Notes: generated by a model not told the origin, from the letters alone. Counted from the first letter of the stretch, positions 1 to 24,674 are shown. The stretch is DNA of 34,873 nt from Desulfuromonadaceae bacterium (GCA_012512925.1 JAAZDE010000179.1:1-34873); one strand, 5' to 3'. A program made the numbers and translations.

Positions 1-67
1 ACAAGTGACAAGTGACAAGTGACAAGTGACAAGTGACAAGTGACAAGTGACAAGTGACAAGTGACAA
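1..67. repeat. Perfect tandem heptamer array (acaagtg)x9 plus a partial copy; truncated by the window edge
   Basis: Direct reading: nine consecutive acaagtg units from 1 to 63, then acaa. Confidence 0.98.
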
Positions 68-185
68 ACAATAGGTAAGCAACCAGTTATAGTCAAAGCA
101 TAATAACCAATAACAAGCTGCCGGTTGCTGGTTTTTCTACGAGCTACGAACCACAAACTGTTTTTCAGTCACCAGTCCGTCAGCC
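68..185. repeat. Degenerate 7-bp-period continuation of the array
   Basis: Heptamer-phased imperfect units such as gccggtt/gctggtt, gagctac/gaaccac and tcaccag, between the perfect array and the stop codon of the SBP gene. Confidence 0.45.
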
Positions 186-196
186 GCATCCACCTT

Positions 197-1888
197 TCAC
201 CTGCGGTATTTCCACTCCGATTCAGGAACATGCCAGCGGATGAAGTTGTGCATGAGGCCTACCGGCGCCGGCTCGATGCCGCGAAAACGGGCCGCCACTA
301 CCGGCAGGGAATCGGGTACGTAAAGGAACGCATAGGGCTGTTCCTCGGCGAGGATTTCCTGGAAACGGCCGTAGATGGCCTTGCGCTCCTGCTGATCCAT
401 GGTGCGGCGCCCCCGCTCCAGCAGTTCGTCCACCTCCGGATGGTTGAAATGGATGAAATTGAGCTGGCCGACGCCGGTTTTGCTGGAGTGCCAGACGTTG
501 TAGCCGTCGGGGTCGACGGGCACGGTCCAGCCGAGGAGAGTGGCCTCGAAATTTCCTGGATTGATGAATTCCTTGAGAAATGAAGCCCACTCGATGACCC
601 GCAGCCGCACCTCGATCCCCAGCTCCCTGAGACGGCGCTGGATGATTTCACCGCACTTGACGCGCTGGTCGTTCCCCTGGTTGGTGACGATGGTGAAGGA
701 GAAGGGGCGTCCCTGGCGATCGAGGATCCCGTCCCCGTCGCTGTCCCCCCATCCCGCCTCCCGCAACAGCTGGCGGGCTTTTTCCGGGTCGTAGGGATAT
801 TTGCGGACCTCGGGGTTGTAGGGCCAGGTTCCAGGTACATAGGGCCCGGTCGCCGTCCTTCCCAGACCCAACAGCACCCCCTTGACGATCTCCTCGCGAT
901 CGATGGCGTAGGAAAGCGCCTGGCGCACCCGCTTGTCCTGAAACAGAGGTTGGCGCAGATTGAAGCCGAGATAGGTGTAGGCCATAGACGGATAGCGGTA
1001 TTTGCGGAAGTTGCGCCGAAAGTTGGAGGACTCGGTCTGGCGGGCGTACTGCAGAGGAGTCAGCCCCATCTGGTCGATGCCGCCGGTCTGCAACTCCAGA
1101 AACATGGTGGTAGGATCGGGAATGACACGAAACACCACCCGGTTAAGATAGGGCCGCCCTTCGTAATAGTCGGGATTGGCCTCGAGAACGATCCGTTCGC
1201 CCCGCCGCCACTCCTTGAAAACGAAAGGACCGGTGCCGACCGGCTCGGCGGAGAGGGGGCTCCTGGTGATCTCGACCCCTTCCAGCAGATGGCGGGGATG
1301 AATGTCGAGGGCCCAGCTGCTCAGGGCCGAGGCCAACGGTTTGCGGTAGGTGACGACGAAAGTGTAAGGATCGGGGGCCTCGGCCCGCTCCACCTGGCGA
1401 TAACGTTCCGCGTAAGCGGTGGGAGTCTTCGGGTCAATGTAGAGGCGATAGGTGAAAAGCACGTCGGCGGAGGTAAAGGGGGTCCCGTCGTGCCATGTCA
1501 CCCCTTGGCGCAGGTGAAAGGTCAGGGTCAGATGATCGGGGGAAATCTGCCACGATTCGGCCAGATCCCCCTCGATCTCGAGGTTCTTGCCGTAACGGAC
1601 CAGACCGCTGTAAATCAGCCCGTTGACGCTGGCGGAGGTGCCGTCCGAAGCCAGCACCGGCAGCAAATTGACAGCGTCGGCGCCGCTGCCGATGAGTATG
1701 GTATCGCCGTGGACGGGGGACTTTGCCCCCTCCGCCACTACCACCGGCCCTTCCACCTCGGAACAGGAGGAGAGCAGCAGAATCAGCAGCAGGGCCGCCG
1801 ACAACCATTTTCCGGCGATTATTCCAGAATCACCCCGGAGACAGCCCTTTGTCGATAGAGCGGGGAAAAAAGAAAGGAACCGCTTCAT
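197..1888 (-). CDS. ABC transporter substrate-binding lipoprotein, oligopeptide/dipeptide type (SBP_bac_5)
   Basis: 563-aa ORF with lipobox LLSSC and SBP_bac_5-like text (LAESWQISPDHLTLTFHLRQGVTWHDGTPFTSADVLFTYR, VRQALSYAIDREEIV, DPEKARQLLREAGW). Confidence 0.93.
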   Translation of the reverse strand: MKRFLSFFPALSTKGCLRGDSGIIAGKWLSAALLLILLLSSCSEVEGPVVVAEGAKSPVHGDTILIGSGADAVNLLPVLASDGTSASVNGLIYSGLVRYGKNLEIEGDLAESWQISPDHLTLTFHLRQGVTWHDGTPFTSADVLFTYRLYIDPKTPTAYAERYRQVERAEAPDPYTFVVTYRKPLASALSSWALDIHPRHLLEGVEITRSPLSAEPVGTGPFVFKEWRRGERIVLEANPDYYEGRPYLNRVVFRVIPDPTTMFLELQTGGIDQMGLTPLQYARQTESSNFRRNFRKYRYPSMAYTYLGFNLRQPLFQDKRVRQALSYAIDREEIVKGVLLGLGRTATGPYVPGTWPYNPEVRKYPYDPEKARQLLREAGWGDSDGDGILDRQGRPFSFTIVTNQGNDQRVKCGEIIQRRLRELGIEVRLRVIEWASFLKEFINPGNFEATLLGWTVPVDPDGYNVWHSSKTGVGQLNFIHFNHPEVDELLERGRRTMDQQERKAIYGRFQEILAEEQPYAFLYVPDSLPVVAARFRGIEPAPVGLMHNFIRWHVPESEWKYRR

Positions 1889-2652
1889 GGCAGGGAATAG
1901 ATCCGGAACCCCTCGGGAGTCCGCAATTCAAAAAGGTCGTCCGCGAGGGCAACGTTGGTCTCCAGGGTGGTGAAACGGATGGTCATCTCGACTTCGCGGG
2001 CGGGGAGAAAAAGTTTCATCTCCAGGGGGAAATTCCCCGCTTCACCGGTGAAATCGGCATATTCGGCTTCCAACTGCCGATCCCCCCGGAAATAGAGGAC
2101 CACCCTGGTCAACCGCCGATCCCGGCTGAAATGGAGGTCCTGCTTCCACTCCCTGCCCGAGCGGGTCAGCCGGTAGCCCTCCGCCGTCGCGACAATCAAG
2201 GGCCGGTCGGGAAAATCGCCTTGCGGCGCCTGGTTCAGGGCCAGGCGGATCAGATCGGCGGGAGCCAGGGGGAGATGCAGCAGACGGTGAATGTTTTCAG
2301 CCGAAGCCCGGCCCCGGTAGAAGATCCCTTCCGCCAGATCGAGGGCGGTGACCTCCCGGTCATTGACGGCCGCCACCAGCACCGGCTGCCCGAACAGGCC
2401 GAACAGTTCCGAGCGGATCCTGTCCGGCTTGCGGATCAACAGGGCCTGCCGGCTTTTCAGGGAAAGGCGTTTTCCTTCCCGCCAGGAGATATGGGCCAGG
2501 CCGCGCAGGCTGAACAGGGAATCCTCCCGGCGGCGCAGTTCCTCCAGCAAATCCTTGGCCGTCACCTCTTCCGGGGGCGGCGGCAGAACCGTCGGCGGCA
2601 GGGTGCAGGAACAGAGCAGGAGCACCAGCCCGATCAAACCGAGTCGCTTCAT
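1885..2652 (-). CDS. LolB-like / DUF4292-type outer-membrane lipoprotein
   Basis: 255 aa with lipobox LLLCSC; LolB-like pattern (SLRGLAHISW...RIRSELFGLFGQPVLVAAVNDREVTALD...HLPLAPADLIRLALNQAP). 4-bp overlaps with both neighbours. Confidence 0.7.
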   Translation of the reverse strand: MKRLGLIGLVLLLCSCTLPPTVLPPPPEEVTAKDLLEELRRREDSLFSLRGLAHISWREGKRLSLKSRQALLIRKPDRIRSELFGLFGQPVLVAAVNDREVTALDLAEGIFYRGRASAENIHRLLHLPLAPADLIRLALNQAPQGDFPDRPLIVATAEGYRLTRSGREWKQDLHFSRDRRLTRVVLYFRGDRQLEAEYADFTGEAGNFPLEMKLFLPAREVEMTIRFTTLETNVALADDLFELRTPEGFRIYSLP

Positions 2653-4355
2653 GGTTTCCCCTCCATTTTGTCCAGTTTGTCCCGCAGCGCCTGGTTTTCC
2701 GGATCCAGCTCCAGACTTTTACGGTAGGCCTCCCCGGCCTCCCGATTCCGCCCCAAGGCCCTCAGCGTATCCCCGATATGTTCGTGAAGCACGGGATCTT
2801 CCCCCATCTCCGCCAGGGCTATTTCCAGATGTTTCAGAGCCTCGGCAAAGTTCCCCCGTTTGTAGTGAACCCACCCCAGGGTATCGCGGATATGGGGCCT
2901 GTCTCTGAGTGCCAGGGCCTGCTCCGCCAGACGCAGGGCGCGATCCAGGTCCCGTCCCCGTTCGGCCAGGGAATAGGCGATGAAATTGATGGCTTCCGCA
3001 TGTTCGGGCTGGAGGCGCAGAATCTCTTCCATGACCGCCATGGCGGCCTCCCCTTCCCCCCTTTTCTCGAGGAGCATCCCTTTCTGGTAGAGCAGATCGG
3101 TTTCCTTGGGAAAAGCGCTGACGCCGCGCTCCAGGGCGTTGAGGGCCTTGCCGCTATCCCCCCCATCCTCATAGAGAGCGCCGAGAAGGCGGAACAGCGC
3201 CGGGTTGCCCGTCCGCCCCGCCAGGTTCTTTTCGATCAATTCGAGTCCCTCGCCGCTTCGGCCGAGACCGTGGTAGAGATAGCCCATGTGGACCAGAGCG
3301 TCGTCGTAGAGGGGGGACCAGGGGCGGATTTCCGCGAAGGCGGCCAGCGCCTCCGCATCCTTGCCCTCTTTGACCAGGGCGATCCCCAGATAGTAACGGG
3401 CCTGATCCCAATCCGGGCGCAGTTTGACCTGGCGGGCGAAAACCTCCGCCGCCTCGGACCAGCGCTGCCTCTCCAGATGAATCAGGCCGCTCTTGCGCAG
3501 CGCTTCGAGATTGTCCGGCTCCTCGTCCAGAATCAGCCGATAGTGGTCCATGGCTTCATCGAGGCGGTTCTCCATGAGCAGCACCTGGGCCAGATGAAGG
3601 CGCATTTCGGTGTTGCCGGGATTCTCCCTCAGCCCTTCGCGAAAAACCGCCCGGGCCTTGTCCCACTCCTTCATCTGTTCCAGCATCCCCCCCAACTCGA
3701 GAACTACCGGCTCGAAACCGGGCTGGCGGGCGAGAATCGACCGGTAATGCTTTTCCGCTTCACCGGTCAGACCGAGTTGACGGTAGAGACGCCCCAGGGC
3801 CAGTCCGGCCCAGGGCGAATCGGGATTCCTGGCCTGCATTTCCCTGAAAACCCGGATTGCCTCCGCCTTGTCCCCTTTCTGGGAGTAGGCCATACCCAGT
3901 TTCAGGGAGGCCCCCTCCTCTTCGGGGTCCAGTTCAAGAATGCGCCGCAGGGGGGGGATCGCCGCATCCGGCTCATTGGCCGCCAAATGAATCTCGGCCA
4001 GCAGAAACAGGGCGTCGATCAGATCGGGATCCAATTGGAGAGCGGTCCGCAGCGAGGCCAAAGCGGCCTCCTTGTCCCCATTTTGGGCCTGGAGAGAAGC
4101 CATCCGGTAATGAAGATAGGGTGCCTGGGGATCGAGACGGAGAGCTTCGCCAAGGGCCTCTTCGGCCTCCGCGGACAAGCCCTGGTCTTCCAGAAGATTG
4201 GCCTTGGCGAAAAGGAAGGCGGCTTTTCCGGCGGCGTCCTCCGCGCCGAAGGGGTGCGAATCGCCCGGGGGAAAACCGGTCAGACGGCCGCATCCGGCGA
4301 CAGCCAGGGGTAGCATCAGCCACAACGAAAAGCGTCTCAGTTGGCGGAAAAACAT
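2649..4355 (-). CDS. TPR-repeat lipoprotein
   Basis: 568 aa with lipobox AVAGC and many TPR units (EAEEALGEALRLDPQAPYLHYRMA, AIRVFREMQARNPDSPWAGLALGRLY, EAYRKSLELDPENQALRDKL). Confidence 0.92.
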   Translation of the reverse strand: MFFRQLRRFSLWLMLPLAVAGCGRLTGFPPGDSHPFGAEDAAGKAAFLFAKANLLEDQGLSAEAEEALGEALRLDPQAPYLHYRMASLQAQNGDKEAALASLRTALQLDPDLIDALFLLAEIHLAANEPDAAIPPLRRILELDPEEEGASLKLGMAYSQKGDKAEAIRVFREMQARNPDSPWAGLALGRLYRQLGLTGEAEKHYRSILARQPGFEPVVLELGGMLEQMKEWDKARAVFREGLRENPGNTEMRLHLAQVLLMENRLDEAMDHYRLILDEEPDNLEALRKSGLIHLERQRWSEAAEVFARQVKLRPDWDQARYYLGIALVKEGKDAEALAAFAEIRPWSPLYDDALVHMGYLYHGLGRSGEGLELIEKNLAGRTGNPALFRLLGALYEDGGDSGKALNALERGVSAFPKETDLLYQKGMLLEKRGEGEAAMAVMEEILRLQPEHAEAINFIAYSLAERGRDLDRALRLAEQALALRDRPHIRDTLGWVHYKRGNFAEALKHLEIALAEMGEDPVLHEHIGDTLRALGRNREAGEAYRKSLELDPENQALRDKLDKMEGKP

Positions 4356-4537
4356 GGATTTCCCTCGCTATTCCAGCGAAAAGTTAGCACACCCTCTCGC
4401 CGAGCGTCAAATCTTACCTCGTCCCGGCAGGTTTTGTTCCTTATCTTCTAATTCATGTTATCATACCCCACCCCCGGCTGGTTTCTTTACACCCCTTCCC
4501 GTCATGTTAAAGTTTTCATAAGCCGGGAGAATTCTCC

Positions 4538-6109
4538 ATGGATGACAACCTATTGCATCGAGCGCTGATGAACAAAGAGGCCTACCCCGAGGAGACCGCC
4601 GCCATACACTTTGTGGAAACCCACGCCTCCCGCCTCTACCTCACCGACCGCCATGTCTACAAGATCAAAAAGCCGGTCGACTTCGGCTTTCTCGACTTCA
4701 GCACTCTGGACAAAAGGCGCCATTTCTGCGAGGAAGAGGTGCGACTGAACCGCCGTTTCTCGCCCGCCACCTACCTGGGAGTGGTCCCCCTGTGCCGTTC
4801 GGGGTCCGCCCTCCGCTTCGGCGGTCCCGGAGATACCATCGAATACGCCGTCCTCATGAAGCGTCTTCCCGAGGATCGGATGCTCGACCGGTTGGTGGCG
4901 GCAGGCGCCGCAGGACTGGCCAAGGAGATGGAGCGGCTCGCTCTCTTCATCGCCGAGATGCACCGCCGGACCCCACCTCACGCAGAGTTGGAAGAATCGT
5001 CCGATCTCCAAGTCATCCGGCAGAACTGGCGGGAAAACTTCGACCAGACCCGCCCTTTCGCCGGAAAGACCATCCCCCGGGAGGGACTTGAGGCGGCCCG
5101 CCGCCTCGTTGAAGGGTTCCTGGACAGCCAGGCGCCGCTGCTGCGGCAGAGGGAAAAGGAAGGATTCGTCCGTGAACTCCACGGCGACCTGCATAGCGAA
5201 CATATCTGCCTGACCGATCCCATACAGATCTACGACTGCATCGAATTCAACCGCCGCTTCCGGATCTCCGATGTCCTCGCCGATATTGCTTTTCTGCTGA
5301 TGGACCTGGAATTCCGCGACCGGCGGGATCTGGCCCGGGCGCTGCTGAAAAACTACCGCCGGCATTTCGCCTGGGGCCATGGGGCCGATCTGCTGATCCC
5401 CTTTTACAAAGCCTACCGCGCCTGGGTGCGGGGCAAGGTCGCCTCCCTGGCCATGGCCCAGCATCGCCAGGCAGAGGAGCAATACGGCCTCCTGCAGAAC
5501 CGGGGCCGCCGTTATTTCAATTTGGCCATGGGCTATCTGGCCCCTCAGGCCCTCGTTCTGACCTGCGGCCTGATGGGAGTCGGCAAGTCGCTTTTCGCCG
5601 GAGAACTGGCCGCGGCGACAGGAATGACCCACCTTCGCTCCGATGCGGAACGGAAGGAACTGGCGGGCCTCGATCCGAACACCAAGATTCGGAATAACTT
5701 CGGAGAGGGGCTCTACGCGCCGACCATGAGCGATGCCACCTACCGCTCCCTCCACGACAAAGCCGGCCGCGCCCTGATCAGGGGGAATTCGGTGGTGGTA
5801 GATGCCTCTTTCGCCAAAAACCGCCACCGGGAGATCTTCAGCCAACTGGGGGAACAGTACGGCGTTCCGGTTCTGCTGGCCCACCTCCAATGCGGCCAGG
5901 CTACTCTCATGGAACGCTTGCGGCAGCGTGAAAGCAGAGGGAATGACATCTCCGACGGGCGCCGCGAACTCCTTTCTTTCCAGGCCGGATACTTCGACTC
6001 CACTTCAGAATTTCCGGGAGTTATCGAAATCGACAGCGAAAAGGAGATCGATTATAATGTCGGTCTGACCTTATCCAGATTGCTCGTGAAAAAAACCGGA
6101 GGCCGATGA
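4538..6109 (+). CDS. Bifunctional APH-like kinase domain plus P-loop AAA-type kinase domain (COG2187/COG0645-like)
   Basis: N-terminal APH-like HGDLHSEHICL...IYDCIEFN; C-terminal Walker A GLMGVGKS. RBS gggaga upstream. Confidence 0.85.
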   Translation: MDDNLLHRALMNKEAYPEETAAIHFVETHASRLYLTDRHVYKIKKPVDFGFLDFSTLDKRRHFCEEEVRLNRRFSPATYLGVVPLCRSGSALRFGGPGDTIEYAVLMKRLPEDRMLDRLVAAGAAGLAKEMERLALFIAEMHRRTPPHAELEESSDLQVIRQNWRENFDQTRPFAGKTIPREGLEAARRLVEGFLDSQAPLLRQREKEGFVRELHGDLHSEHICLTDPIQIYDCIEFNRRFRISDVLADIAFLLMDLEFRDRRDLARALLKNYRRHFAWGHGADLLIPFYKAYRAWVRGKVASLAMAQHRQAEEQYGLLQNRGRRYFNLAMGYLAPQALVLTCGLMGVGKSLFAGELAAATGMTHLRSDAERKELAGLDPNTKIRNNFGEGLYAPTMSDATYRSLHDKAGRALIRGNSVVVDASFAKNRHREIFSQLGEQYGVPVLLAHLQCGQATLMERLRQRESRGNDISDGRRELLSFQAGYFDSTSEFPGVIEIDSEKEIDYNVGLTLSRLLVKKTGGR

Positions 6110-6363
6110 AGAAGTTTCCCGTTGGCGTCGTTTCCGAAATCTGCCTGCTGTTGCTGCTGGCGGGAATGATTCTGCTCAATTATCCCTTTCTGGGAATTTT
6201 CAGCGGTTCCGGCCCGGTTTTGGGTTTCCCTTCCCTCGTCGGCTTTCTTTTTCTGGCCTGGGGCCTGCTGATCGTCATGATCTTCCTGCTGGCGGCACAT
6301 CTCGGCCGGGACGGCGAAGAGCAGGATGAGACCGGCGGACGGCGGGAAAAGAGGCGGCCATGA
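6106..6363 (+). CDS. Small two-TM membrane protein, candidate accessory subunit of the following SLC5-type protein
   Basis: 85 aa, two hydrophobic segments (EICLLLLLAGMILLNYPFLGIF and LVGFLFLAWGLLIVMIFLLAAHL); ATGA overlaps with the genes on both sides. Confidence 0.8.
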   Translation: MKKFPVGVVSEICLLLLLAGMILLNYPFLGIFSGSGPVLGFPSLVGFLFLAWGLLIVMIFLLAAHLGRDGEEQDETGGRREKRRP

Positions 6364-9300
6364 TCCCCTTCGCCATCGTCGCCGGAACATCCCTGCTTTA
6401 TTTCGGGATCCTCTTCGGGGTCGCCTTCTACGCCGATAAATGCCGCCGGGCCGGGTACAGCATCACCTCCAACGCCTATATCTACGCCCTGTCCCTCAAT
6501 GTTTTCCTGAGCGCCTGGACCTTCTACGGAGCCGTGGGCAGAGCCGCCAACAACGGCATCGATTTTCTCGCCCTCTACCTCGGACCGTCCCTGATCGTTC
6601 TCACCTGGTGGCTGCTGCTGCGCAAGATGGTGCGGGCCAGCCGGGAACAGCATATCGTCAGCTTCGCCGATTTCATCTCCAGCCGCTACGGCAAGTCGGC
6701 CTCCATCGGCGCCGTGGTGACACTCTTCTGCATCATCGGCACCCTCCCCTACATCGCCATCCAGCTGCGGGCCATCACCGCTACCTTCGACATGCTGTCC
6801 ATTCCGCCGGTGGTCAGCCCCCAGCACCTGATCGATCTGTTCAACACCTTCGACCTGCTCTCCGTCCCCGCCGAGCAACTCGGCAGGGTGCCGACCGCGA
6901 TCTCTCCCACGCTCCCCTCATACATCGACAGCGGCCTGATCCTCGCCCTGATCCTCGGCCTCTTCTGCGTCCTTTTCGGCGCCCGCCATCTCGACGCCTC
7001 GGAACGCCACGAGGGTCTCATCGCCGCCGTCGCCCTCGAATCCCTGGTCAAGCTTTTCGCCTTTCTGGCCCTCGGACTTTTCGTCACCTTCGGTCTCTTT
7101 GACGGTTTCGGTGATCTCTTCGAACAGTTTTCCCGCCATTCCCCCCGGACCGGCGAACTCATCTCCCTGCCCAGCGCGACGATTCCCTATTCCCAGTGGT
7201 TCTCCCTGATGGTCATCGGCATGCTGGCCATTTTCTGCCTCCCCGGCCAGTTTCACCTGTTGGTGATCGAAAACAGCCAGGAGAAACATATCCGTACCGC
7301 CATGTGGCTGTTCCCGGCCTATCTTCTGCTGTTCACCCTCTTCGTCATCCCCATCGCCGCGGCCGGACTGGTTTTCTACGGCGGCACCGACCTGGCGGCC
7401 GACTATTTCGTCCTTCGCATTCCCATGGAGAAAGGACCGCCCTGGCTCACCATGCTGATCTTTCTCGGCGGTTTGTCGGCCTCCGCGGGAATGGTGATGG
7501 TCACCTCCGTGGCCCTTTCCACCATGATTCTCAACAACCTGGTGGTGCCCGCCATCCTCAAGATCAGAAGCGGCGCCGCCTCCCTGTCCGGGCTGCTGAT
7601 CAACACCAAACGGGTCGCCATCTTCGCCGTCATTCTCGGCGGCTATTTTTATAACGAAATGATCTCGGCAAGCTACGGGCTGATCAGCATCGTTCTGATC
7701 TCCTTTGTCGCCGCCATCCAGTTCGCGCCGGCTTTGATCGGCGGCCTGCTGTGGAAAAGGGCTTCCCGCAGGGGAGCGCTCACCGGCCTGGTCCTGGGCT
7801 TCGCCGTCTGGAGCTACACCCTGCTCCTCCCCTCGCTGATCGCTTCCGGCTGTTTCCCCTGCAACATCCTGGACCAAGGTCCCTGGGGATTCTCTTTTCT
7901 CCGCCCCCAGGCCCTCTTCGGCCTCTCCGGGCTGGACGTCTGGTCCCATGCCCTATTCTGGAGCCTGCTCTTCAACCTGGGACCCTTTGTCGCCATTTCC
8001 CTGTTTGGCCAGCTTACCCCCAGCGAAAAAGAGCAGGTCGACCGCTTCGTTCATGTCCTCTCGCCCCCGGCCGAGCCCACGGGGATGAAGATTCTCAGCA
8101 AAGCCCCCAGCGTCAGGGAGTTCGTCGAGTTGATGACCAAATTCATCGGCGAGGAAAGGGCCCAGTCGGCCATCGGAGATTACCTGAAAGACAGAGGGTT
8201 CGATCATCGCGGCACCCTTCCCGACCGCGAGGTCCCGGCCCTGAAACGTTTTACGGAAAAGACCCTGGCCGGATCGGTGGGCACCGCCCCGGCCCGCATT
8301 ATCATCGAAAATTATCTCTCCGCCCGGGGCAGCAAGATGGAGGATGTCTTCGATATCTTCGGCAACGTCACCCTGAGCCGCAACGCCAGCCGCGAGCAGC
8401 TCAGCGTCCTTTACGAGGCGGCGCGGATGGTGGCCAGCGGCAAAGGACTGCAGACCACCCTCGACGATATCCTGCGTCTTCTGGAACAGCAGTTCATGCT
8501 CGATTTGTGTATCATCCGCATTTACGACCCGGCCCAGAACGCCCTGGTCACAAAGAGCCAGATCGGCATGACCGAAGGGCATCTGCTCACTTCCAGGATC
8601 CAACTGCACGAACAAACTTTCGTAACCGACACCTTCCGCAAGAACGCCGTCGTCGTCATCAACGACGCCGAAACGGTCAACAATCCCTTTTCGGCCAAGG
8701 TCATCCGCCGGGAAGGGATCAAATCGATGGCCCATGCGCCGATCGTCATCGAAGACCAGCCGGTAGGGGTTCTTTCCGCCTATTCCAAAACCATCAAGGG
8801 CATCTTCACCGAAGAGTTTATGGAATTTTTCACCAGCCTGGCCGGTCAAGTGGGAGTGGCCTGGCGCAACGCCCAACAGGCGGAAAAATTGCTTGAAGCC
8901 AAGGAACACCAGAAGGAGATGGAGATCGCCAAGCGGATCCAACTCAGCCTGCTCCCCACCACGCTGCCTCAGATCGAGGGGCTCTCCCTGGCCGGAGTCT
9001 GCGAACCCGCCAGCCAGGTGGGGGGGGACTATTACGACGTTTTGATCAACGGCGACGAAAGTCTCGACATCCTCATCGCCGACGTGTCCGGTCACAATGT
9101 CGGCGCCGCCCTGATGATGGCCGAGGCGCGGACCTTCATCCATGCCCTGTTCCATACCTTTTCCGGCCCGGCCGGGATCATGCAAGCCCTGAACAACTTC
9201 TTCAACCGCGACCTGAGCGAGGCGGAACTGTTCATCACCCTCTTCTATCTGCGCCTCGACCCCAACAGCCGCCGCTTCAGCTACGCCAGCGCCGGCCACA

Positions 9301-9638: not shown

Positions 9639-9749
9639 AAGGGTGCAGCCAACTTTTCCGCCAAGGTGAAAAAATTTATGCTATTTTAATAGGGATATGG
9701 TTTTTATGAAATTTGAAAATCGGAGATGTCATCATCAGGAGGAACTGCA

Positions 9750-10085
9750 ATGAACTGCGATGTCACGGACCATGGGAATGCGGTTGTCGTCGAAGTGAAG
9801 GAAGAACGCCTGGACGCCCACAACAGCAACGAATTCAAATCCCAGATGCTGAGCCTCTTTGAAGGGGGCAAAAACAACATGGTCATCGATCTGAAAGGGG
9901 TGCGCTTCATCGATTCTTCTGGCCTTGGCGCCCTCGTGTCGGGCTTCAAGAACGCCACCGCCCGCAACGGCAGCCTCAAACTCTGCGGCATGCAGACGCA
10001 GGTGAAATCGATGTTCGAGCTGACCCGCCTGCATCGGGTTTTCGAAATCTTCGCCGGTGTCTCCGAGGCCCTGGCCAGTTTCTGA
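9750..10085 (+). CDS. STAS-domain anti-sigma factor antagonist (SpoIIAA/RsbV-like)
   Basis: Start set at MNCDVTDHG after RBS aggagg; phospho-acceptor motif VRFIDSSGLGALVSGFK. Confidence 0.93.
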   Translation: MNCDVTDHGNAVVVEVKEERLDAHNSNEFKSQMLSLFEGGKNNMVIDLKGVRFIDSSGLGALVSGFKNATARNGSLKLCGMQTQVKSMFELTRLHRVFEIFAGVSEALASF

Positions 10086-10104
10086 TCACCTCCTCCGGGT
10101 TGGT

Positions 10105-11947: not shown

Positions 11948-11996
11948 GGTGACCGGCAACTGGTTACTGGTGATTAGTGACTGGTTTCTGGTTGAA
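11948..11996. repeat. Degenerate heptamer array (ccggcaa ctggtta ctggtga ttagtga ctggttt ctggttg)
   Basis: 7-bp phasing visible over about 7 units; lies between the rluA-like stop and lgt. Confidence 0.85.
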
Positions 11997-12014
11997 ATAA
12001 AAACAACATACCAA

Positions 12015-13001
12015 TCACCCTTCGGTTTTTTGCTGCCCATCCCGGAGCCAGGTGATTGCCTCCGTCATATCCTCGGGCAGCGGCGCCGTCAATTCCAGTG
12101 ACGCGTCGGTGACGGGATGGGGCAAAAGAAGATGAAAGGCATGGAGCATGGGGCGGCAAAACCGTATGCCTGAAAGAGATTCCGCCCCGCCATACCTTGG
12201 GTCCCCCAGCAGGGGACGGCCGGCCTCCGAAAAATGAACGCGGATCTGGTGGGACCGGCCGGTCAGGATCTCCGCTTCCACGTAAGTCGCCTCGGCATAC
12301 CGCTCGAGCACCCGATAGCGCGTGATCGCCTCCCGTCCGCCGACGGCCACCGACTTCATCCGGTTGGTGCCCCGATTGCGGGCAAGCAGAGAGCGGAACT
12401 CCCCCTCCCCCTCCGGAAAAGTCCCCGCCGCCAGCAGGCGATAGAGTTTTTTCACCCGCCTCTCCTGGAAAATGGCCGTCAGCGGTTTGTGGGAGCGGCG
12501 GTGAATGGAAAATATCAGCAGGCCCGAGGTATCGCGATCCAGACGCTGGACCATCCCCAGTTCGGGCCGGTCGAGAGGGCGAAAGGGGTTGTGGAGATAG
12601 CGGAGCAGGGCTTCGTAGAGGGTTCCTTTGTAGCGGGCCGGAGTCGGATTGGTGTCGATTCCCCAGGGTTTGTTTACGGCCAGCAGCCATGGGTCGCGGA
12701 ACACCACCATGGCATCGTCGATAGAAAAAACCTCCAGCGGTCGGCCGTCGAAAAAAACCTCCACCGTCTCCCCGGGCCGCACCGACTGGGAACAGCGACG
12801 AACACGGCGCCCGCCGGCATGAACCCCGCCCAGGTCGATTGCTTTGCGGACCGTCCCCCGGGACAGCTCAGGGCATCGTCCGGCTATAAAAAGATCAAGC
12901 CTCTGCCCATCCTCCTCCGGCAAAGGCTGCAGGCGCCAAAGCTTTTTTATGGGAGGGGAAATAACGCCGCCTTCCATTCCTGCATCAGTCATATCGTCCA
13001 T
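12015..13001 (-). CDS. RluA-family 23S rRNA pseudouridine synthase
   Basis: S4-like N-terminus (QRLDLFIAGRCPELSRGTVRKAIDLGGV), catalytic MVQRLDRDTSGLLIF, GRSHQIRVHF, LLGDPRYGG. Confidence 0.95.
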   Translation of the reverse strand: MDDMTDAGMEGGVISPPIKKLWRLQPLPEEDGQRLDLFIAGRCPELSRGTVRKAIDLGGVHAGGRRVRRCSQSVRPGETVEVFFDGRPLEVFSIDDAMVVFRDPWLLAVNKPWGIDTNPTPARYKGTLYEALLRYLHNPFRPLDRPELGMVQRLDRDTSGLLIFSIHRRSHKPLTAIFQERRVKKLYRLLAAGTFPEGEGEFRSLLARNRGTNRMKSVAVGGREAITRYRVLERYAEATYVEAEILTGRSHQIRVHFSEAGRPLLGDPRYGGAESLSGIRFCRPMLHAFHLLLPHPVTDASLELTAPLPEDMTEAITWLRDGQQKTEG

Positions 13002-13053: not shown

Positions 13054-13091
13054 AAAAAAGAGGGAGGTCAACGGTTTCACCGTTGACCTCC
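13054..13091 (-). terminator. Rho-independent terminator downstream of the REC-PilZ gene
   Basis: Perfect 12-bp inverted repeat ggaggtcaacgg-tttca-ccgttgacctcc (13063-13091), followed on the minus strand by CTCTTTTTT. Confidence 0.85.
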
Positions 13092-13178
13092 GGATAAGTA
13101 TATAGCGAATTATATTCCGAAAAAGGATTTCCCGTCCAATTTAAAAAAACCAGCCGGGAAAAAATCGGGAATGGCTTG

Positions 13179-13937: not shown

Positions 13938-14005
13938 GCCTCTCTCCTGCGGATAACCCTATCCGGCAAACCACTCTTGAAAAAAACAACGCAACGAAAT
14001 CCACC

Positions 14006-14704: not shown

Positions 14705-14888
14705 TTCCCTTTCCCACCAGCCTGCCGATCAGGTCCGGCCAGGAAAAACTGGCGATTAATTCCTCTTCTCAAATGAAATTTTATCTTATTTCCAGGGAAG
14801 GGGTCCTCTTTTGCCTGGGAATTGGGACAAATCGCGGCAAAGGGATGCGAATTGTGCGGCCATTCCACGTCGCCAGGGCCTGGATTAC

Positions 14889-14917
14889 AAAAAAACGGGC
14901 GACAAAGCCGCCCGTTT
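14889..14917 (-). terminator. Rho-independent terminator of the EF-G paralog
   Basis: Perfect 9-bp stem aaacgggcg/cgcccgttt with 7-nt loop; minus-strand T-tract follows. Confidence 0.85.
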
Positions 14918-14947
14918 CATTGACACAAAAATGGAGATTGCGCTTTC

Positions 14948-17032: not shown

Positions 17033-17160
17033 TCATTCTCCTTTCGTAGCCTGGGACCGTCGTTCTTTGCGGTTTTTCCAGGCACTCTCCATCAAAATAT
17101 GCGAAAGATTCGCTTTTAACGCGGCTATTAAACCAAAATTTCTCGTCTTTGAACAGTCAC

Positions 17161-17940
17161 TTATTCCGGGGCGGCGCCTTTATTGCGTTCATGGATAATG
17201 CGCAGGCCCTTCAAGGCCAGTAAGGGATCGCTGCGCTCGATGGTCTCGGAAGCGGCGGCGATGGCATCGCACAAACCGCCGGTGGCCAGCACAAAGGAAT
17301 TTTCCCCGGACTCCTTCTTCATCCGGTTGACGATGCCGTCGACCAGGCCGGCATACCCGAAAAAAAGACCGGCCTGGATGCTGTTGACGGTATTTCTGGC
17401 GATGATCTGCGGCGGTTGGGCCAACTCGACTCTGGGCAACTTGCTGGCCTTGTCGAACAGCGCCTCGGAGGAAATGCTCAGTCCCGGGGCGATGGCGCCC
17501 CCCTGATATTCGCCGCGGCGGCTGACGAAATCGAAGGTGGTGGCGGTCCCGAAGTCGACCACGATCACCGAGCGGCGGTACTCCTCATAGGCGGCCACGG
17601 CGTTGACGATGCGGTCGGCCCCGACCTCTTTGGGATTGTCGTAATGAATCGGCATGCCGGTTTTGACGCCGGGACCGACGATACAGGGATGGTGGCCAAG
17701 ATAGCGTCGGCAGAATTCGCTCAAGGGATTGAGGACCGGCGGGACGACGCAGGAGATGATAATGGCGTCGATATCTGCCAGATCGAGGCCGCCGAAATGG
17801 AACAGGCTGCGAATGACGATGGCGTATTCATCAGCGGTACGGAATTTGACGGAAGTGATGCGCCAGCTTTCACGGAGTTCCGCTCCCCGGAACACCCCCA
17901 GCACGATATGGGTGTTGCCAACATCGAAGGCCAGAAGCAT
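17161..17940 (-). CDS. coaX: Type III pantothenate kinase
   Basis: [46 protein letters not shown]. Confidence 0.96.
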
Positions 17941-17955
17941 GATGGCACCTTTTTA

Positions 17956-17990
17956 GTCAGTGGTCATTGGTCATTGGTCGGTGACTGGTC
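17956..17990. repeat. Degenerate heptamer array (gtcagtg gtcattg gtcattg gtcggtg actggtc)
   Basis: 7-bp period by inspection; between the birA stop and coaX start. Confidence 0.88.
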
Positions 17991-18006
17991 CCGGAAAAAT
18001 TCCGGG

Positions 18007-18807
18007 TCAATGAACCGCCAGGATATCCCCGCTCAGCACCCGCTCCACGCGACCCCCCTGCAAACGCAGCAGCAAGGCCCCCTCTCCGTCGATGCCGAAA
18101 GCTTCTCCGCTGAGGAGACCGCCGCCGCCATCGATCTCGACGCGCCGGCCCAGCATGGCGCAGCGCTCCTGCCAACGGCGCCGGATGGGGTCGAATCCTT
18201 CTTCCAGAAAGATCCCGTAGTGAAGGTCCAGCAGCCGCAGCAGCCGTTTGGCCAGCGGCACCCTGGGCACCGTCTCCCCTTTCTCGATGGCGACCGAGGA
18301 GGCGGGATAGAGGGGACGCTCCGGGAGTTGATCGATCCTCATATTGACGTTGAGGCCGATACCCAGGATAATGAAATCGACTCCCGACATGGTGGCTGCA
18401 ATCTCGCCGAGAAGGCCGGCGACCTTTTTCCCTCCCAGCAGCACGTCGTTGGGCCACTTGACCCCGGCGATCAGGCCGCAACAGCATTCCACCGCCTCGG
18501 CGACGGCCAGGGACGAAAGCAGCGTGATCTGCGGCGCCTGTTGCGGCGCCAGGCGCGGGCGCAATACCACAGAGAGATAGAGATTGACCCCCGGCGGCGA
18601 CACCCAGTTCCGCCCCATGCGACCGCGGCCGCCGCTCTGCTCGTCGGCAATCACCACCGTTCCCTCCGGTGCCCCTTGTTCCGCCAGGCGGCGGGCCTGA
18701 AGGTTGGTGGAATCGGTGCTCTCCAGGTAAACGACAGAGCAACCGATGCGGCGGCTTTCGGCAAAGCCGACCCCCGCCAGCTGACTCAGATCGTCCCGGC
18801 CGTCCAT
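18007..18807 (-). CDS. birA: Biotin-[acetyl-CoA-carboxylase] ligase (catalytic domain, no N-terminal HTH)
   Basis: LESTDSTNLQARRLAEQGAPEGTVVIADEQSGGRGRMGRNWVSPPGVNLYLS; VKWPNDVLL; GIGLNVN. Confidence 0.94.
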   Translation of the reverse strand: MDGRDDLSQLAGVGFAESRRIGCSVVYLESTDSTNLQARRLAEQGAPEGTVVIADEQSGGRGRMGRNWVSPPGVNLYLSVVLRPRLAPQQAPQITLLSSLAVAEAVECCCGLIAGVKWPNDVLLGGKKVAGLLGEIAATMSGVDFIILGIGLNVNMRIDQLPERPLYPASSVAIEKGETVPRVPLAKRLLRLLDLHYGIFLEEGFDPIRRRWQERCAMLGRRVEIDGGGGLLSGEAFGIDGEGALLLRLQGGRVERVLSGDILAVH

Positions 18808-18820
18808 CGGATAGTTCCTC

Positions 18821-19657
18821 TCACGGAAACGAGGTGTCGAAAAGAAGGCTGATATCCACCGCCCGGCTGGAATGGGTCAGTGCTCCCACCGAGATGAAAT
18901 CGACCCCGCATTCCGCCAGAGAACGGACCGTGGCCAGGCTGACCCCCCCCGAAACCTCCAGAAGAGCTCGCCCCGCCACGAAAGCGACGGCCTGCCGCAC
19001 GGTTTCCGCCTCCATGTTGTCGAGCAGGAGAATGTCGGCGCCGGCGGCGAGGGCCTCGGCCGCCTCGTCAAGCGTAGAGACCTCCACCTCGACCCGCAGG
19101 GGATGGGGCGCCATCCGTTTCGCCCGGCCGACGGCCGCGGCGATACCTCCCGCCGCCCGGCTGTGGTTTTCCTTGATCAGAATACCGTCGGCCAGGGAAA
19201 AACGGTGATTGCGCCCGCCGCCGACGCGGACCGCGTATTTTTCCAGAAACCGCAGCCCCGGCGTGGTCTTGCGGGTATCGACGATGGCCGCCCTGGTCCC
19301 CTCGACCGCCTTGACGAACTGGCGGGTCAGGGTGGCGACGCCGCTCAGCCGCTGCACAAAATTGAGCGCCACCCGCTCCCCCTGAAGGAGGGACACGGCC
19401 CGCCCGGAAACGAGAGCGAAAACCTCACCCCTGGCTATGGCCATGCCATCCCGGAAGCCGCTCTCGAAGCGGATCTCCTCATCGACCAGGTGAAAGACGC
19501 GGCGGGCCACGTCAAGGCCGGCCAACAGGAATTCCTCCTTGGCCAGCAGTTCCCCCTGGGCGGAAGTGGCGGCGTCCACCGTCACCCGGGTGGTGACGTC
19601 CCCCGAGGCGATATCCTCCCGCAACGCGTTGCGGAGCAGTTCATCAATGGCAAACAT
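18821..19657 (-). CDS. nadC: Nicotinate-nucleotide pyrophosphorylase (carboxylating)
   Basis: LREDIASGDVTT; NFVQRLSGVATLT; DTRKTTPGLRFLEKYAVRVGGGRNHRFSLADGILIKENH; EVEVSTLDEA. Start trimmed to MFAIDELL. Confidence 0.97.
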   Translation of the reverse strand: MFAIDELLRNALREDIASGDVTTRVTVDAATSAQGELLAKEEFLLAGLDVARRVFHLVDEEIRFESGFRDGMAIARGEVFALVSGRAVSLLQGERVALNFVQRLSGVATLTRQFVKAVEGTRAAIVDTRKTTPGLRFLEKYAVRVGGGRNHRFSLADGILIKENHSRAAGGIAAAVGRAKRMAPHPLRVEVEVSTLDEAAEALAAGADILLLDNMEAETVRQAVAFVAGRALLEVSGGVSLATVRSLAECGVDFISVGALTHSSRAVDISLLFDTSFP

Positions 19658-19798
19658 GGACCACATCCTCTTCCCGGCCGGGTTTGAAGATTTCATTCAT
19701 AGCACAGGGAACCACCTCCCGCAACTGGGAAAACCTTGAAAAACAGAGTGATTTCCTTGGGCAAAAGTACTTCGGGAGCGACGCCTGGCGATCTGTCG

Positions 19799-19835
19799 GC
19801 CAGGTTACCGGTTACCAGGTACCGCTCACAAATCA
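19799..19835. repeat. Degenerate heptamer array (ccaggtt accggtt accaggt accgctc acaaatc acc)
   Basis: 7-bp period by inspection; runs into the stop codon of the ABC-F gene. Confidence 0.75.
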
Positions 19836-21763
19836 CCTGCCCCGCCAGCCTGCAGTTCCTCCCAGCGAAGGTAAAAACGATCCACCTCGCGGCGGAGATC
19901 CTCATGGCGGTGGATGGCTTCGGTAAATCGTTCAGCATCGCCGTAGAAAACAGGATCCGCGAGAAGCTTCTCCAGGGCGGCGAGTTCTTCCTCCCGTTCG
20001 GCGATGGTCTCCTCCAGCGTCTCGATCTCCTTGAGGCGCTTGCGCTCCTCCCGCTGGGCGTCCCGACGTTCCCGGTGCTCCTGGCGACGCTCGGCTTTTT
20101 TGTCATCCTCCCCATTGGCGGCCGGTGCCGCGCTCCGGCACTCGACCCGCTCCCCGCTATGGGTGGCGTCCCCTTGCGACTGTTTGCTCTGCAGGAAATC
20201 ACCATAATTGCCGGGATAGGAAAGAACCTTGCCCTGCCCCACCTCCAGAACGCGGGTGGCCAGTTGGTCGACGAAATAGCGGTCGTGGGAGACGAAGACC
20301 ATGGTGCCGTCGAAATGGCGCAGGGTGTCGAGCAGCACCTCTTTGGAATCGATGTCGAGATGGTTGGTCGGTTCGTCCAGCAGCAGCAGATTACGCGGTT
20401 TCAGGAGCAGCTTGGCGAAGGCCAGCCGGTTGCGCTCGCCGCCGGAAAGGACGGCGACCTTCTTGTCTACGTCATCGTTGGAGAAGAGAAATCCCCCAAG
20501 CAGGTTGCGGAGTCTGGGGACCATATCAAAGGGAGCCGCTTCGGTGATCTCCGCCAGCACCGTCCGTCCCGCATCGAGGAGCGCCGCCTGGTTCTGGGCG
20601 AAGTAGCCGATCCGCAGCCCCTCCCCTTCGCGGCGTTCTCCCTTCCACGGCGTTTCAACCCCGGCCAGCAGGCGCATCAGGGTCGATTTGCCGGCCCCGT
20701 TGGGTCCCGCCAGGGCCACCCTCTCGCCCCGGCCGATCGGCAGATCGACCCCTTCCAGAACCGTCAGCGGACCGTAGCCGTGGCTGATCCCGGAAAGCCG
20801 TAAAACATCCTTGCCCCCCTTGGGGGAAGGCGGGAAGCGGAAGCCGATCCTTTTGGGCTGAGGCGGCAGATCGATCCTGTCGATCTTTTCCAGCTGCTTG
20901 ACCCGACTCTGAACCAGGGAGGCCTTGTTGGCCTGATAGCGGAAGCGGCTGATGAAATTCTCGATGCGGGCGATCTCCTCGTCCTGGCGCCGTTTGGCCT
21001 CGCGCAGGGATTCGATACGGCGCTCCCTTTCGGTCAGATAGGCGCTGTAGTTGCCGGAATATTCCTGAAGACCGCCATTCCAGATGTCGATGATCTTTTC
21101 CACCACCTGGTCGAGAAAATGGCGGTCGTGGGAGACCACCACCAGGCTGAAGGGATAGCTCTGGAGGAAGGATTCCAGCCACTCCCGCGTTGCCAGATCG
21201 AGATGGTTGGTCGGCTCGTCCAGAAGGAGCAGGTGAGGACGCCGCAGCAACAGCTTGGCCAGGGCGATGCGCATCTGCCAGCCGCCGGAGAAACCGCTGC
21301 AGGGCTTCTCCCAGTCAGCCCGGGCAAAGCCGAGGCCATCGAGAACCTTCCCTGTGTCCGACTCCATGGTGTAGCCACCCTTGAGACGGAACAGCTCCTG
21401 CAAGGCCGCGTAACGCTCCAGGCCGGCCTCGTCGGCCCGGGAGGCCATGCCCCCTTCCAACTCCTTCAACTCCCGCTCCAGCGCCTCCAGCTCGGCCAGG
21501 GCGGAACGGACCTCTGAAAAGAGGGAGTTGTCGCCAATACCCTCCACCAATTGCGGCAGGTAGCCGATGGTGATCCCCTTGGCGGCGTCGATCTCTCCCC
21601 GGTCCGGCTCCAGTTCACGGCTAAGTATCCGCAGCAGGGTGGTCTTGCCTGCGCCGTTGGGGCCGCACAAGCCGATGCGGGTCCTGTTGCCGATAAACCA
21701 GGAGACCCCCGAGAGCACCTCGCGCCCGCCGAAATCCTTGCTGATGTCTTTGATGTGGATCAT
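19826..21763 (-). CDS. ABC-F family ATPase (two ABC domains, Uup/YheS/YdiF-like)
   Basis: Two Walker A (GPNGAGKTT, GPNGAGKST), two signature motifs (SGFSGGWQMRIALA, LSGGERNRLAFA), LLLLDEPTNHLD twice, C-terminal charged coiled coil. Start placed at MIHIKDISKDFGG (ORF-track start is a spurious extension). Confidence 0.95.
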   Translation of the reverse strand: MIHIKDISKDFGGREVLSGVSWFIGNRTRIGLCGPNGAGKTTLLRILSRELEPDRGEIDAAKGITIGYLPQLVEGIGDNSLFSEVRSALAELEALERELKELEGGMASRADEAGLERYAALQELFRLKGGYTMESDTGKVLDGLGFARADWEKPCSGFSGGWQMRIALAKLLLRRPHLLLLDEPTNHLDLATREWLESFLQSYPFSLVVVSHDRHFLDQVVEKIIDIWNGGLQEYSGNYSAYLTERERRIESLREAKRRQDEEIARIENFISRFRYQANKASLVQSRVKQLEKIDRIDLPPQPKRIGFRFPPSPKGGKDVLRLSGISHGYGPLTVLEGVDLPIGRGERVALAGPNGAGKSTLMRLLAGVETPWKGERREGEGLRIGYFAQNQAALLDAGRTVLAEITEAAPFDMVPRLRNLLGGFLFSNDDVDKKVAVLSGGERNRLAFAKLLLKPRNLLLLDEPTNHLDIDSKEVLLDTLRHFDGTMVFVSHDRYFVDQLATRVLEVGQGKVLSYPGNYGDFLQSKQSQGDATHSGERVECRSAAPAANGEDDKKAERRQEHRERRDAQREERKRLKEIETLEETIAEREEELAALEKLLADPVFYGDAERFTEAIHRHEDLRREVDRFYLRWEELQAGGAGDL

Positions 21764-21837
21764 CCGCCAAACCCGAAGAATCGATTTAAAATAGGCAAAG
21801 TTATTTTCGTCATTTTTTATTCGCTGATCGCCGACAC

Positions 21838-21868
21838 AAAAAAACGAGGGGTTCGCCAACCACCCCTC
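21838..21868 (-). terminator. Intrinsic-terminator-like hairpin upstream of the ABC-F start codon (possible attenuator)
   Basis: Minus strand: GAGGGGT-ggttggcga-ACCCCTC-G-TTTTTTT; 7-bp perfect stem plus T7 tract, about 75 nt before the ATG. Confidence 0.7.
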
Positions 21869-22433
21869 TCGAAAAAACAAGGATAAGGAATATCCGCCCT
21901 GTGGGGCAAGATCAACAAAAAAATTCTTGGGCTTTTTTACCCGGCGCTGCCTTTTGTTTCTGGCCCACCTAGTCATGACTGCCGATACCGAGCGGAACGA
22001 TTCCTTTTTCGGCACCCAACAGGGCCAGAGTGACGCGCTGGCTGCAGGCAAGAGGATCAGGGGCGGTTTGCTGTCGGAGCAGAACTGCCGAGGGCGGAAA
22101 TAAAAAGAGATAGGGCCGTCAACAAACCCTTTTAGGCAAGCAGCGGTTCGCATCATTCCGAACCCTAAAAATTTCGCCAAACACCCCCCATTTTCCTCTG
22201 CGCCATTGCCAACCGCAGGACTTTCTGCGATAAATAAGATTAGCGTTATCCTTACTATCCCCTTTTATTTAAAGTCGGTCATTCCCGAATACTCGTCGGG
22301 AACCTGAGGGGACCAGAGTTGGTGACGCCAATTCAAGACAAATTGACGGTGCAAGACTGGCCGTGGCCATATTTTTTACAGTCATCCGACTCCTAGCGGC
22401 CTGTTGGCCGCCAAGAGAGAAGAAAAGGATTTT

Positions 22434-24584
22434 ATGGGCAGAAAAATTTTGATCAACGCCGATCATCCCGAGGAGAGCCGCATCGCCATCGTGGAAGACG
22501 GCGTCCTCGTCGAATACGAGGTCGAATTCACCGGCAAGGAGCAAAACAAGGGCAATATCTACAAGGGAACCGTCGTCAACGTGGTGCCCGCCCTTCAGGC
22601 CGCCTTTGTCGATTACGGCGCCGAACGCCCCGGTTTCCTGCAGAGCAGCGACATCAATCCGCGCCTGCTGCGCAGGGAGGGGGAACCCGCCCCATCGGGC
22701 CCCTTCCGCATCGAGAAGGTCCTCAAGCAGGGCCGGGAACTGCTGGTCCAGGTGGTCAAGGACGCCCGCGGCACCAAGGGCGCGGCGCTGACCACCGAAC
22801 TCTCCCTGCCGGGGCGCTTCATGGTGCTGATGCCTTACGGCGATGCCCGCGGCGTGTCGCGGAAAATCGACGACGAAGCGCAGCGCAAGAAGATCAAGGA
22901 GACGATGGCCTCCTTCAACCTTCCGGAGAATGTCGGCTATATCGTCCGCACCGCGGCCATCGGCCAGAAAAAGGAAGAACTGAAAAAGGACATCGACTAC
23001 CTTCAACGCATCCACGAAAAGGTTCAGGAACTGGCCGCCAAGGCCAAGGCCCCGGCCCTGATCTACCAGGAATCGAACCTCGTCATCCGCTTTTTGCGCG
23101 ATTACTTCAGCACCGACATGGATTCGGTGCTGGTCGACAATCCGCAGGTCTATCAGCAGGCCGTCGATTTCTTCAAGGACGTCCTCCCCGACTACGCCGG
23201 CCTGGTCAAACTCCACCGGGAGAAGCGTCCCATCTTCTCCCGCTATCAACTGGAAGAGCAGATCGCGGCCATTTCCAAAAACAAGGTGACCCTCCCTTCC
23301 GGCGGTTCCATCGTCATCGACAGCACCGAAGCGTTGGTCGCCATCGACGTCAACTCGGGAAAAACCCTCGGCGAGGGTAACATCGAGGGCACCGCCTTCA
23401 AAACCAACATGGAGGCGGTCACCGAAATCGCCCGCCAGCTCAGGCTCCGCGACCTGGGCGGTCTGATCGTTCTCGATCTGATCGACATGAAGGACCGCGC
23501 CCACATCCGCGACGTGGAAAAGGGGCTCAAGGATGCCCTGAAAAAAGACAAGGCGCGCATCAACATCTCCCGCATCAGCAAGTTCGGCCTGCTGGAATTG
23601 AGTCGGCAGCGGATCAAGCCCACCCTCGGTGAACAGTCTTTTATTTCCTGCCCTCACTGCCAGGGCAGCGGCCGGCTGAAACGGGTCGAAGCCCAGGCGG
23701 TCACCGCCCTGCGCAAGATCGCGGCGGTGCTCATCAAGGGGGAAACGGATCGGGTGGAAGGGGAACTGCCGCTGGAAACCGCTCTCTACCTTCTCAACGA
23801 AAAACGTTCTTCCCTGGCGGAATTAGAGGAAAAATACCAGAGCCAGATCCTTCTCAAGGGCCGCCCCGACGTCCTTCCCGACCATTTCGAACTGACGGTC
23901 CACAACAAGGAGAAAACCGCCGCCGCGGACGACACCCAGCCCCCGACAGCGGCCGTAGCAGCGGCTTCGACCCTGGAGACGGCGGAGCCGGCTGAAAAGG
24001 AAACTGCCGCCCCGGAACCGGAAAAGAAGAAATCCCCCCGGAAAAGATCGCGGCGGGGCAAGGGCGGCGCCAGAAAAGAGCCGACTGCCGGAGAGGCCGC
24101 CACGGCCGAAGCACCGGCCGTCCCTCCTCCCTCTGCCGAGACGGAAACCCCGGAGCCGGCCCCGGTCCCGGAAGAAGCCAGGGAAACCTCCTCATCATCC
24201 GAGGCGCCGGCCGCCGCGGAAAAGAAGCCGGCGCGCCCCTCCTCCCGCCGCCGGGGAGGTCGAACCAGAACGAAAAAGGAAACCGCTCCGGACTCGTCCC
24301 CAACCTCCGAACAGCCGGAGCGCGGCGCGGCAGTCCCGGAACCGGCCGCCGCGGAAACCTCACCCAGCCAGGGGATGGAAGAACCGGCGGCGGCTTCCGG
24401 CATTGGGAAACCGGCGGATGCGCGTCCCAAGGCGGCCCGGCGACCCCGCAGAAGGCCGCGCCAGGGAGAGAAGAAAAAGGATCAGCCGAGCGAAAAAGCG
24501 GCCGGCGAATCGGCCACCCTTGCGGCAAAGGAAAGCTCGGAGGCGAAAACAGCTTCCGAGCCGGAAAAAAAGGAAGAGAGCTGA
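22434..24584 (+). CDS. Ribonuclease E/G family endoribonuclease with long low-complexity C-terminal tail
   Basis: MGRKILINADHPEESRIAIVEDGVLVEYEVE; NIYKGTVVNVVPALQAAFVDYG; VAIDVNSGK; GGLIVLDLIDM; Zn-link SCPHCQGSG. RBS aagga upstream of ATG. Confidence 0.96.
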   Translation: MGRKILINADHPEESRIAIVEDGVLVEYEVEFTGKEQNKGNIYKGTVVNVVPALQAAFVDYGAERPGFLQSSDINPRLLRREGEPAPSGPFRIEKVLKQGRELLVQVVKDARGTKGAALTTELSLPGRFMVLMPYGDARGVSRKIDDEAQRKKIKETMASFNLPENVGYIVRTAAIGQKKEELKKDIDYLQRIHEKVQELAAKAKAPALIYQESNLVIRFLRDYFSTDMDSVLVDNPQVYQQAVDFFKDVLPDYAGLVKLHREKRPIFSRYQLEEQIAAISKNKVTLPSGGSIVIDSTEALVAIDVNSGKTLGEGNIEGTAFKTNMEAVTEIARQLRLRDLGGLIVLDLIDMKDRAHIRDVEKGLKDALKKDKARINISRISKFGLLELSRQRIKPTLGEQSFISCPHCQGSGRLKRVEAQAVTALRKIAAVLIKGETDRVEGELPLETALYLLNEKRSSLAELEEKYQSQILLKGRPDVLPDHFELTVHNKEKTAAADDTQPPTAAVAAASTLETAEPAEKETAAPEPEKKKSPRKRSRRGKGGARKEPTAGEAATAEAPAVPPPSAETETPEPAPVPEEARETSSSSEAPAAAEKKPARPSSRRRGGRTRTKKETAPDSSPTSEQPERGAAVPEPAAAETSPSQGMEEPAAASGIGKPADARPKAARRPRRRPRQGEKKKDQPSEKAAGESATLAAKESSEAKTASEPEKKEES

Positions 24585-24593
24585 TTTTCGGGA

Positions 24594-24674
24594 GACTGGC
24601 AACTGACCCCTGATGACTGGCAACTATCCGAAAAACAAAACATTCACCAGTTATCAGTGATCGGCAGTCACTGC
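24594..24674. repeat. Two opposed degenerate heptamer arrays between convergent genes
   Basis: Plus-sense actggca actgacc cctgatg actggca, then caccagt tatcagt gatcggc agtcact (inverse sense). Contains the perfect hairpin cagtga-tcggcag-tcactg (24655-24673). Confidence 0.75.

Follow-up and report, generated by a model that had tools for sequence, protein, structure and literature searches.

The DNA analysed here, referred to as the window, is a stretch of 34,873 nt from Desulfuromonadaceae bacterium (GCA_012512925.1 JAAZDE010000179.1:1-34873), which corresponds to contig C123:1-34873 and begins at contig base 1. Five intergenic loci of the window carry tandem arrays of degenerate seven-nucleotide units (heptamers), which are proposed below to form the arms of miniature hairpin elements dispersed over the genome. 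According to Pfam, the genes flanking the arrays encode a solute-binding protein (SBP_bac_5), an RluA-like pseudouridine synthase and Lgt, a BirA-like ligase and CoaX, an ABC-F protein, and RNase E/G (rng) and Smr, in agreement with the neighbours that had been named when the window was first inspected without database searches (the sequence-only reading). The 7-bp phase claimed at that time was recovered at all five loci, each of them intergenic, with identity peaking at lag 7 among lags 4–12 and P values of 0.00005–0.02 for lag-7 identity against random placements of equal length. Outside the perfect array at positions 1-67, the window contains three period-7 segments, as compared with a mean of 0.48 and a maximum of 2 after dinucleotide shuffling. 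The loci at 19799 and 24594 are weak when taken singly, and Tandem Repeats Finder (TRF) gives no entry for the latter.

Two of the loci are decayed elements with both arms inside the window. The first occupies the spacer between the rluA-like gene and lgt (11948-12019) and consists of a forward arm on the plus strand (11948-11993; TRF period 7, P 0.0004), an A-rich loop, GAAATAAAAACAACAT, at 11994-12009, and a short reverse arm on the minus strand, ACCAATCACC (12010-12019), which overlaps the stop codon of the rluA-like gene (12015-12017) and pairs with the forward arm in the RNA fold. Sequence comparison shows that the loop of this element, GTTGAAATAAAA, is similar to the family loop described below. 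The second lies between the convergent genes rng and smr (24594-24674), with a forward arm behind the rng stop codon at 24584 (24594-24630, plus strand; P 0.004), an A-rich loop separating the arms (24631-24644) and a reverse arm that overlaps the smr stop codon at 24668 (24645-24674, minus strand; P 0.02); the two arms pair with a fold z of −3.0.

The remaining loci show single or truncated arrays. The window opens with a perfect plus-strand array, (ACAAGTG)9.6, which corresponds to GTGACAA units (1-67; TRF score 134) and is truncated by the end of the contig, base 1 of C123 being also the first base of the window. It is followed, behind the stop codon of the solute-binding protein gene (197), by decayed heptamer arms such as the minus-strand ACTGGTGACTG and TTCGTAGCTCGTAG (68-185; lag-7 identity 0.41, P 0.005). 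In the birA/coaX spacer, units resembling ATGACCA and GTGACCA form an array on the minus strand (17956-17992; TRF score 41, P 0.00005), and a separate small hairpin, CCCGGAATTTTTCCGGG, is predicted by RNA folding between the birA stop codon and this array (17990-18006, minus strand). A weak array of three minus-strand GGTAACC units (19803-19824; TRF score 30, P 0.002) stands 2 nt past the ABC-F stop codon. No Rfam match above the gathering score was found at the arrays, the sole match in 76 kb being a tRNA at window positions 34798-34870. As regards the neighbouring genes, a protein with a DUF4292 domain (1888-2652) adjoins the solute-binding protein gene, and the best listed matches of the ABC-F protein (19826-21763) in named genomes are of Bacteroidota type at about 40 % identity, possibly reflecting an old transfer.

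The arrays of the window belong to a family that extends across the genome, as had been supposed. The genome was read as sequence stretches covering 0.82 Mb (32 %), while the scan for three consecutive units, (GTRRCNN)x3, encompassed the whole genome and returned 149 matches, as opposed to none for the reversed pattern. In 605 kb of the genome, 30 segments were found at period 7 and 23 at period 14, whereas the other periods between 4 and 15 gave 0–5 and shuffled sequence gave none. In some genomes GTGACCA arrays fit both GTRRC and its reverse, so that the reversed control is not neutral there, and counts of the pattern TRAYNNN were excluded from the statistics since its reversed control was likewise not neutral.

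Many of the arrays are paired, so that a forward array of GTGACTG and its variants is followed by a spacer, commonly of 15–60 nt, and then by a reverse-complement array. The resulting element has the layout 5'-(GTRRYNN)n - A/T-rich loop - (NNRYYAC)n-3' and a length of roughly 60–200 bp. When arms were defined as at least three GTRRY units spaced 7 nt apart, and neighbouring arms as those no more than 120 bp apart, four genomes representing four families (G000, G006, G012 and G066) yielded 25 forward-then-reverse pairs and not a single reverse-then-forward pair, along with 2 forward–forward and 3 reverse–reverse pairs. These counts are not fully independent, as a genome contains related copies, but the four genomes agree with each other despite their different units (GTGACTG, GTGACGC, GTGGCGC). 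The loop is conserved as well: when up to one mismatch is allowed, ACTGGTTAAAATCAAA has 11 occurrences in this genome, every one of them linked to an array, and one complete 78-bp element used as a query detected about ten more copies matching in at least 64 of 78 nt. The inverted pairs fold with a mean z of −7.3, a value that mostly restates the inversion because the pairs had been chosen as inverted. The sequence-only reading had described a family of orientation-variable tandem arrays; the family and the occurrence of both orientations hold, whereas the apparent variability is that of an inverted pair within one element, and what is dispersed comprises two inverted arrays placed in fixed order around a conserved loop rather than a plain tandem array.

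This architecture bears on the question of whether the arrays could have arisen in place from short seeds by local slippage, without any copying between loci. Slippage is indicated by an array of about 430 bp in G006 (L208 9873-10304), in which homogeneous blocks of GGTCACT, then GGACACT and then GACAAAT succeed one another step-wise, and which is a fossil record of unit turnover. Moreover, among long simple repeats, those with seven-base units are the most frequent in many prokaryotes (cited in PMC4679880). The earlier suggestion of a slippage-generated repeat is supported to the extent that slippage, to which such blocks point, is the likely source of array length. As a complete explanation, however, local slippage appears improbable, given that unlinked loci have a common loop and a common two-armed architecture, that the arm order is fixed and that the unit family is uniform within one genome and different in the next.

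Several other patterns in the arrays were tried and set aside. A suspected strong constraint on the first two unit positions, G1-T2, was dropped, since random phase patterns were equally low in 3 of 60 cases, and co-evolution between arms reached a p of 0.02 in G000 only, with none in the other three genomes. Contigs C105 and C39 had seemed to reflect a polymorphism between strains, but all that they share is 92 bp at their ends, in all likelihood an artefact of assembly.

The elements are positioned with respect to genes in a characteristic manner. None of 46 arms in G000, and 4 of 56 across G006, G012 and G066, lie inside called genes. Both neighbouring genes were called for 59 elements, of which 48 are found in tandem, 7 in convergent and 4 in divergent gaps, although divergent gaps account for 27 % of intergenic bases (binomial probability approximately 1e-4), which extends to the family the avoidance of divergent promoter regions noticed in the window. 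The proposed bias towards gene 3' ends was also substantiated, as a gene 3' end is located within 20 nt in 38 of 55 cases, as compared with a mean of 22 and a maximum of 33 in 2000 trials of uniform placement in the same gaps (Kolmogorov–Smirnov p 2e-6). In G012, the forward arm typically starts 5–7 nt past the stop codon, while the end of the reverse arm is located 11–13 nt ahead of the next start in several cases. The elements are also present in core gene clusters (pil, dap and gcv), including three consecutive spacers, pilB-pilT, pilT-pilC and pilC-pilS; here and below, the pil and electron transfer flavoprotein (ETF) gene names were assigned by reading the sequences.

The contact with stop codons is in some cases immediate. 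Thirteen of the 48 tandem elements are at distance 0 from a predicted stop, touching or overlapping it, and the TGA of the array itself serves as the stop codon of pilT and of one gene of L031. This raises the idea of a stop-codon fence, according to which the elements are kept because GTRRC units supply a stop (TGA, TAA or TAG) in each of the three frames past the gene end, and it agrees with such a function that a gene reading into a forward–reverse element reaches the stop-rich arm first. Nevertheless, the arrays of G066 consist mostly of GTGGC units, in which TGG is not a stop, and stop codons are a by-product of units of this kind, as was remarked for TAACTGA repeats (PMC4679880). The abundance of GTGGC units led to the rejection of this explanation, which we consider hardly credible.

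The sequences at the outer boundaries of the elements suggest a further role. Beyond the arms, the sequence tends towards an A-tract/stem/T-tract arrangement with the boundary GTYAC-[TG]GC-YTTT, in which the fraction of T at +4 to +7 is 0.47–0.73 in G006 and 0.32–0.73 in G012. On the flank that faces away from the gene upstream, the T fraction is 0.42 between +4 and +9, as compared with 0.22 further out. This tendency, together with the T excess, fits leaky terminators or shields of mRNA 3' ends. It could also be taken to mean that the elements are bidirectional intrinsic terminators whose stems have been lengthened by heptamer slippage, all the more so as most relatives have, at the convergent rng-smr junction, a GC-rich terminator without heptamers where the element stands here. 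On the other hand, the T-runs behind the stems are short and often absent, and canonical terminators adjoin the element at L037 and L039. A pure terminator role is rendered rather unlikely by the fact that successive spacers of the pil cluster, which is judged to be one transcript from its short spacers in G001 and G004, hold elements, as terminators there would be strongly polar.

The spacers of relatives provide evidence for the gain of whole elements. C-terminal pieces of 18 genes abutting elements were used to find orthologues in G001 (same genus) and G004 (same order), and spacers were compared at those loci for which a match to the downstream gene was obtained. The pilT-pilC spacer is 99 nt long in this genome but 25 nt in G001 and 13 nt in G004, and the pilC-pilS spacer is 120 nt long as compared with 42 and 15 nt, all four spacers of the relatives being element-free. 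At the ETF locus, a spacer of 99 nt corresponds to an element-free one of 27 nt in G001. The excess over G001 is 72–78 bp, or about one element. The comparison was made between species, with one genome per species. At a paralogous locus, G001 carries heptamers of another kind (TCATTGG). The dapB-dapL spacer of G004 (L308) contains an inverted pair with units of about 8–9 nt (ACGCAACG/ACGCGACG), and heptamers are found at that spacer in this genome.

That unlinked sites carry the same arms and the same loop, and that a sister species has empty sites, indicates that whole elements have been copied rather than born locally. The explanation that we favour, with moderate confidence, is that the arrays form the two arms of a miniature hairpin element that is dispersed in the genome, resembling REPINs and bacterial interspersed mosaic elements (BIMEs), with slippage-prone heptamer stems. 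Whole elements would be copied into intergenic spacers, mostly past a stop codon and before the next ribosome-binding site. Their arm length would then drift through slippage of 7-mers, which may also yield the long homogeneous arrays; that slippage follows insertion is suggested by the homogeneous blocks within arrays such as that of L208. Old copies would decay to degenerate arrays like those of the window, and copies would presumably persist where they leave coding frames and promoters intact, namely in transcribed 3' spacers. In such spacers they may form an intercistronic mRNA stem–loop with effects similar to those of repetitive extragenic palindromic (REP) sequences and BIMEs, such as putative shielding of the upstream mRNA 3' end or, where a T-run follows, leaky termination. 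The observation of the sequence-only reading is confirmed, and its interpretation is partly supported.

A number of points weigh against this explanation. Partnerless single arms are common, and neither a target-site duplication nor exact element ends could be defined. It is also conceivable that G001 and G004 have lost elements at the empty sites. As the genes were called by a simple codon-model finder, single coordinates may err, stops less than starts. Finally, no mobile gene was found to be linked to the elements, as heptamer unit pairs are absent up to a distance of about 1.4 kb from the sole Y1 transposase gene of this genome (C69:32125).

The last point also concerns the possibility that the elements are of REPIN type and are mobilized by a REP-associated tyrosine (RAYT, Y1) transposase. 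RAYT genes are flanked by their own REPs, whereas the Y1 gene of this genome lacks flanking repeats. Of the 136 genomes of the order, 117 carry Y1_Tnp genes, but by inspection their numbers are unrelated to those of heptamers: G071 has 40 matches and no Y1 gene, and G082 has 25 Y1 genes and no matches. Although inverted doublets that form hairpins in intergenic spacers are indeed reminiscent of REPINs (PMC3116915), mobilization by RAYT was rejected on these grounds and seems highly improbable.

The family is not restricted to this genome. Within the order, four GTRRC units in 7-nt phase were found in 47 genomes out of 136 (0–178 matches per genome), and among 395 genomes sampled across the phylum they were found in 51; the unit variants are genome-specific (GTGACTG, GTGACGC, GTGGCGC, GTAACCA). 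More tentatively, the elements may represent an unnamed class of non-autonomous mobile hairpins with stems of 7-nt units sharing a GTRRY core, order-wide and scattered in the phylum, that would be copied by a route other than RAYT and possibly recognized by a DNA- or RNA-binding partner with one unit per subunit. Long TAACTGA arrays are also present in the order (G031 C1:147997-148112, as well as G050 C65, G068 C63 and G013 C7). Several arrays of (GTGACTG) type are seen in the IMG/VR contigs L350, L349 and L351, which are listed as viral but may be mis-binned host DNA or carriers.

Heptamer repeats have been known in scattered bacteria since the description of short tandem repeats (STRRs), with no accepted account of the seven-base unit or of its spread. 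With a fixed order, a conserved loop, units specific to each genome and sites that are empty in a sister species, the elements provide a concrete dispersal unit that can be tracked in strain pairs. Since the elements are located inside core clusters (pil, dap and gcv), they may re-tune expression between cistrons. They also appear to break short-read assemblies, and the window itself begins within one.

Among known repeats, STRRs and TAACTGA repeats are nearest in sequence and REPINs are nearest in architecture. The kinship with heptanucleotide repeats of STRR type that had been suggested is upheld by the tandem 7-nt unit and mainly intergenic location, which are shared with the cyanobacterial STRRs, although the host lineage is different. 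Read on the opposite strand, STRR2 (TTGGTCA) gives the TGACCAA type present at 17956-17979 of the window. The two-armed hairpin layout is not known to have been described for STRRs. TAACTGA repeats have been reported in Beggiatoaceae, Cyanobacteria and Bacteroidetes (MacGregor 2015, PMC4679880), and they resemble the present units in their 7-nt tandem arrangement, mainly intergenic location and stops in three frames of one strand; when rotated, the two units differ by one base (ATAACTG as compared with GTAACTG here). In the BOGUAY genome, TAACTGA forms direct repeats (169 sets, one of them indirect) that are mostly located just upstream of starts (PMC4679880), unlike the inverted pairs with a conserved loop just past stop codons described here. 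For Pelobacter carbinolicus, multicopy sequences are referred to the supplements of the genome paper (PMC3543383), which may include some of the present elements; a term search of its main text gave no heptamer or hairpin description. REPINs and BIMEs consist of inverted repeat blocks round a spacer that form hairpins (Bertels and Rainey 2011, PMC3116915), and the elements share with them this arrangement, intergenic dispersal and genome-specific families, but differ in having stems of variable-number tandem heptamers and in that the repeats were not found to flank a RAYT gene. The elements are heptanucleotide repeats by their unit, while they depart from REPINs in the RAYT gene and from intrinsic terminators in placement. 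Judged by their sequences, they appear to be a variant of the known heptamer repeats, STRR and TAACTGA, that is new in its two-armed form.

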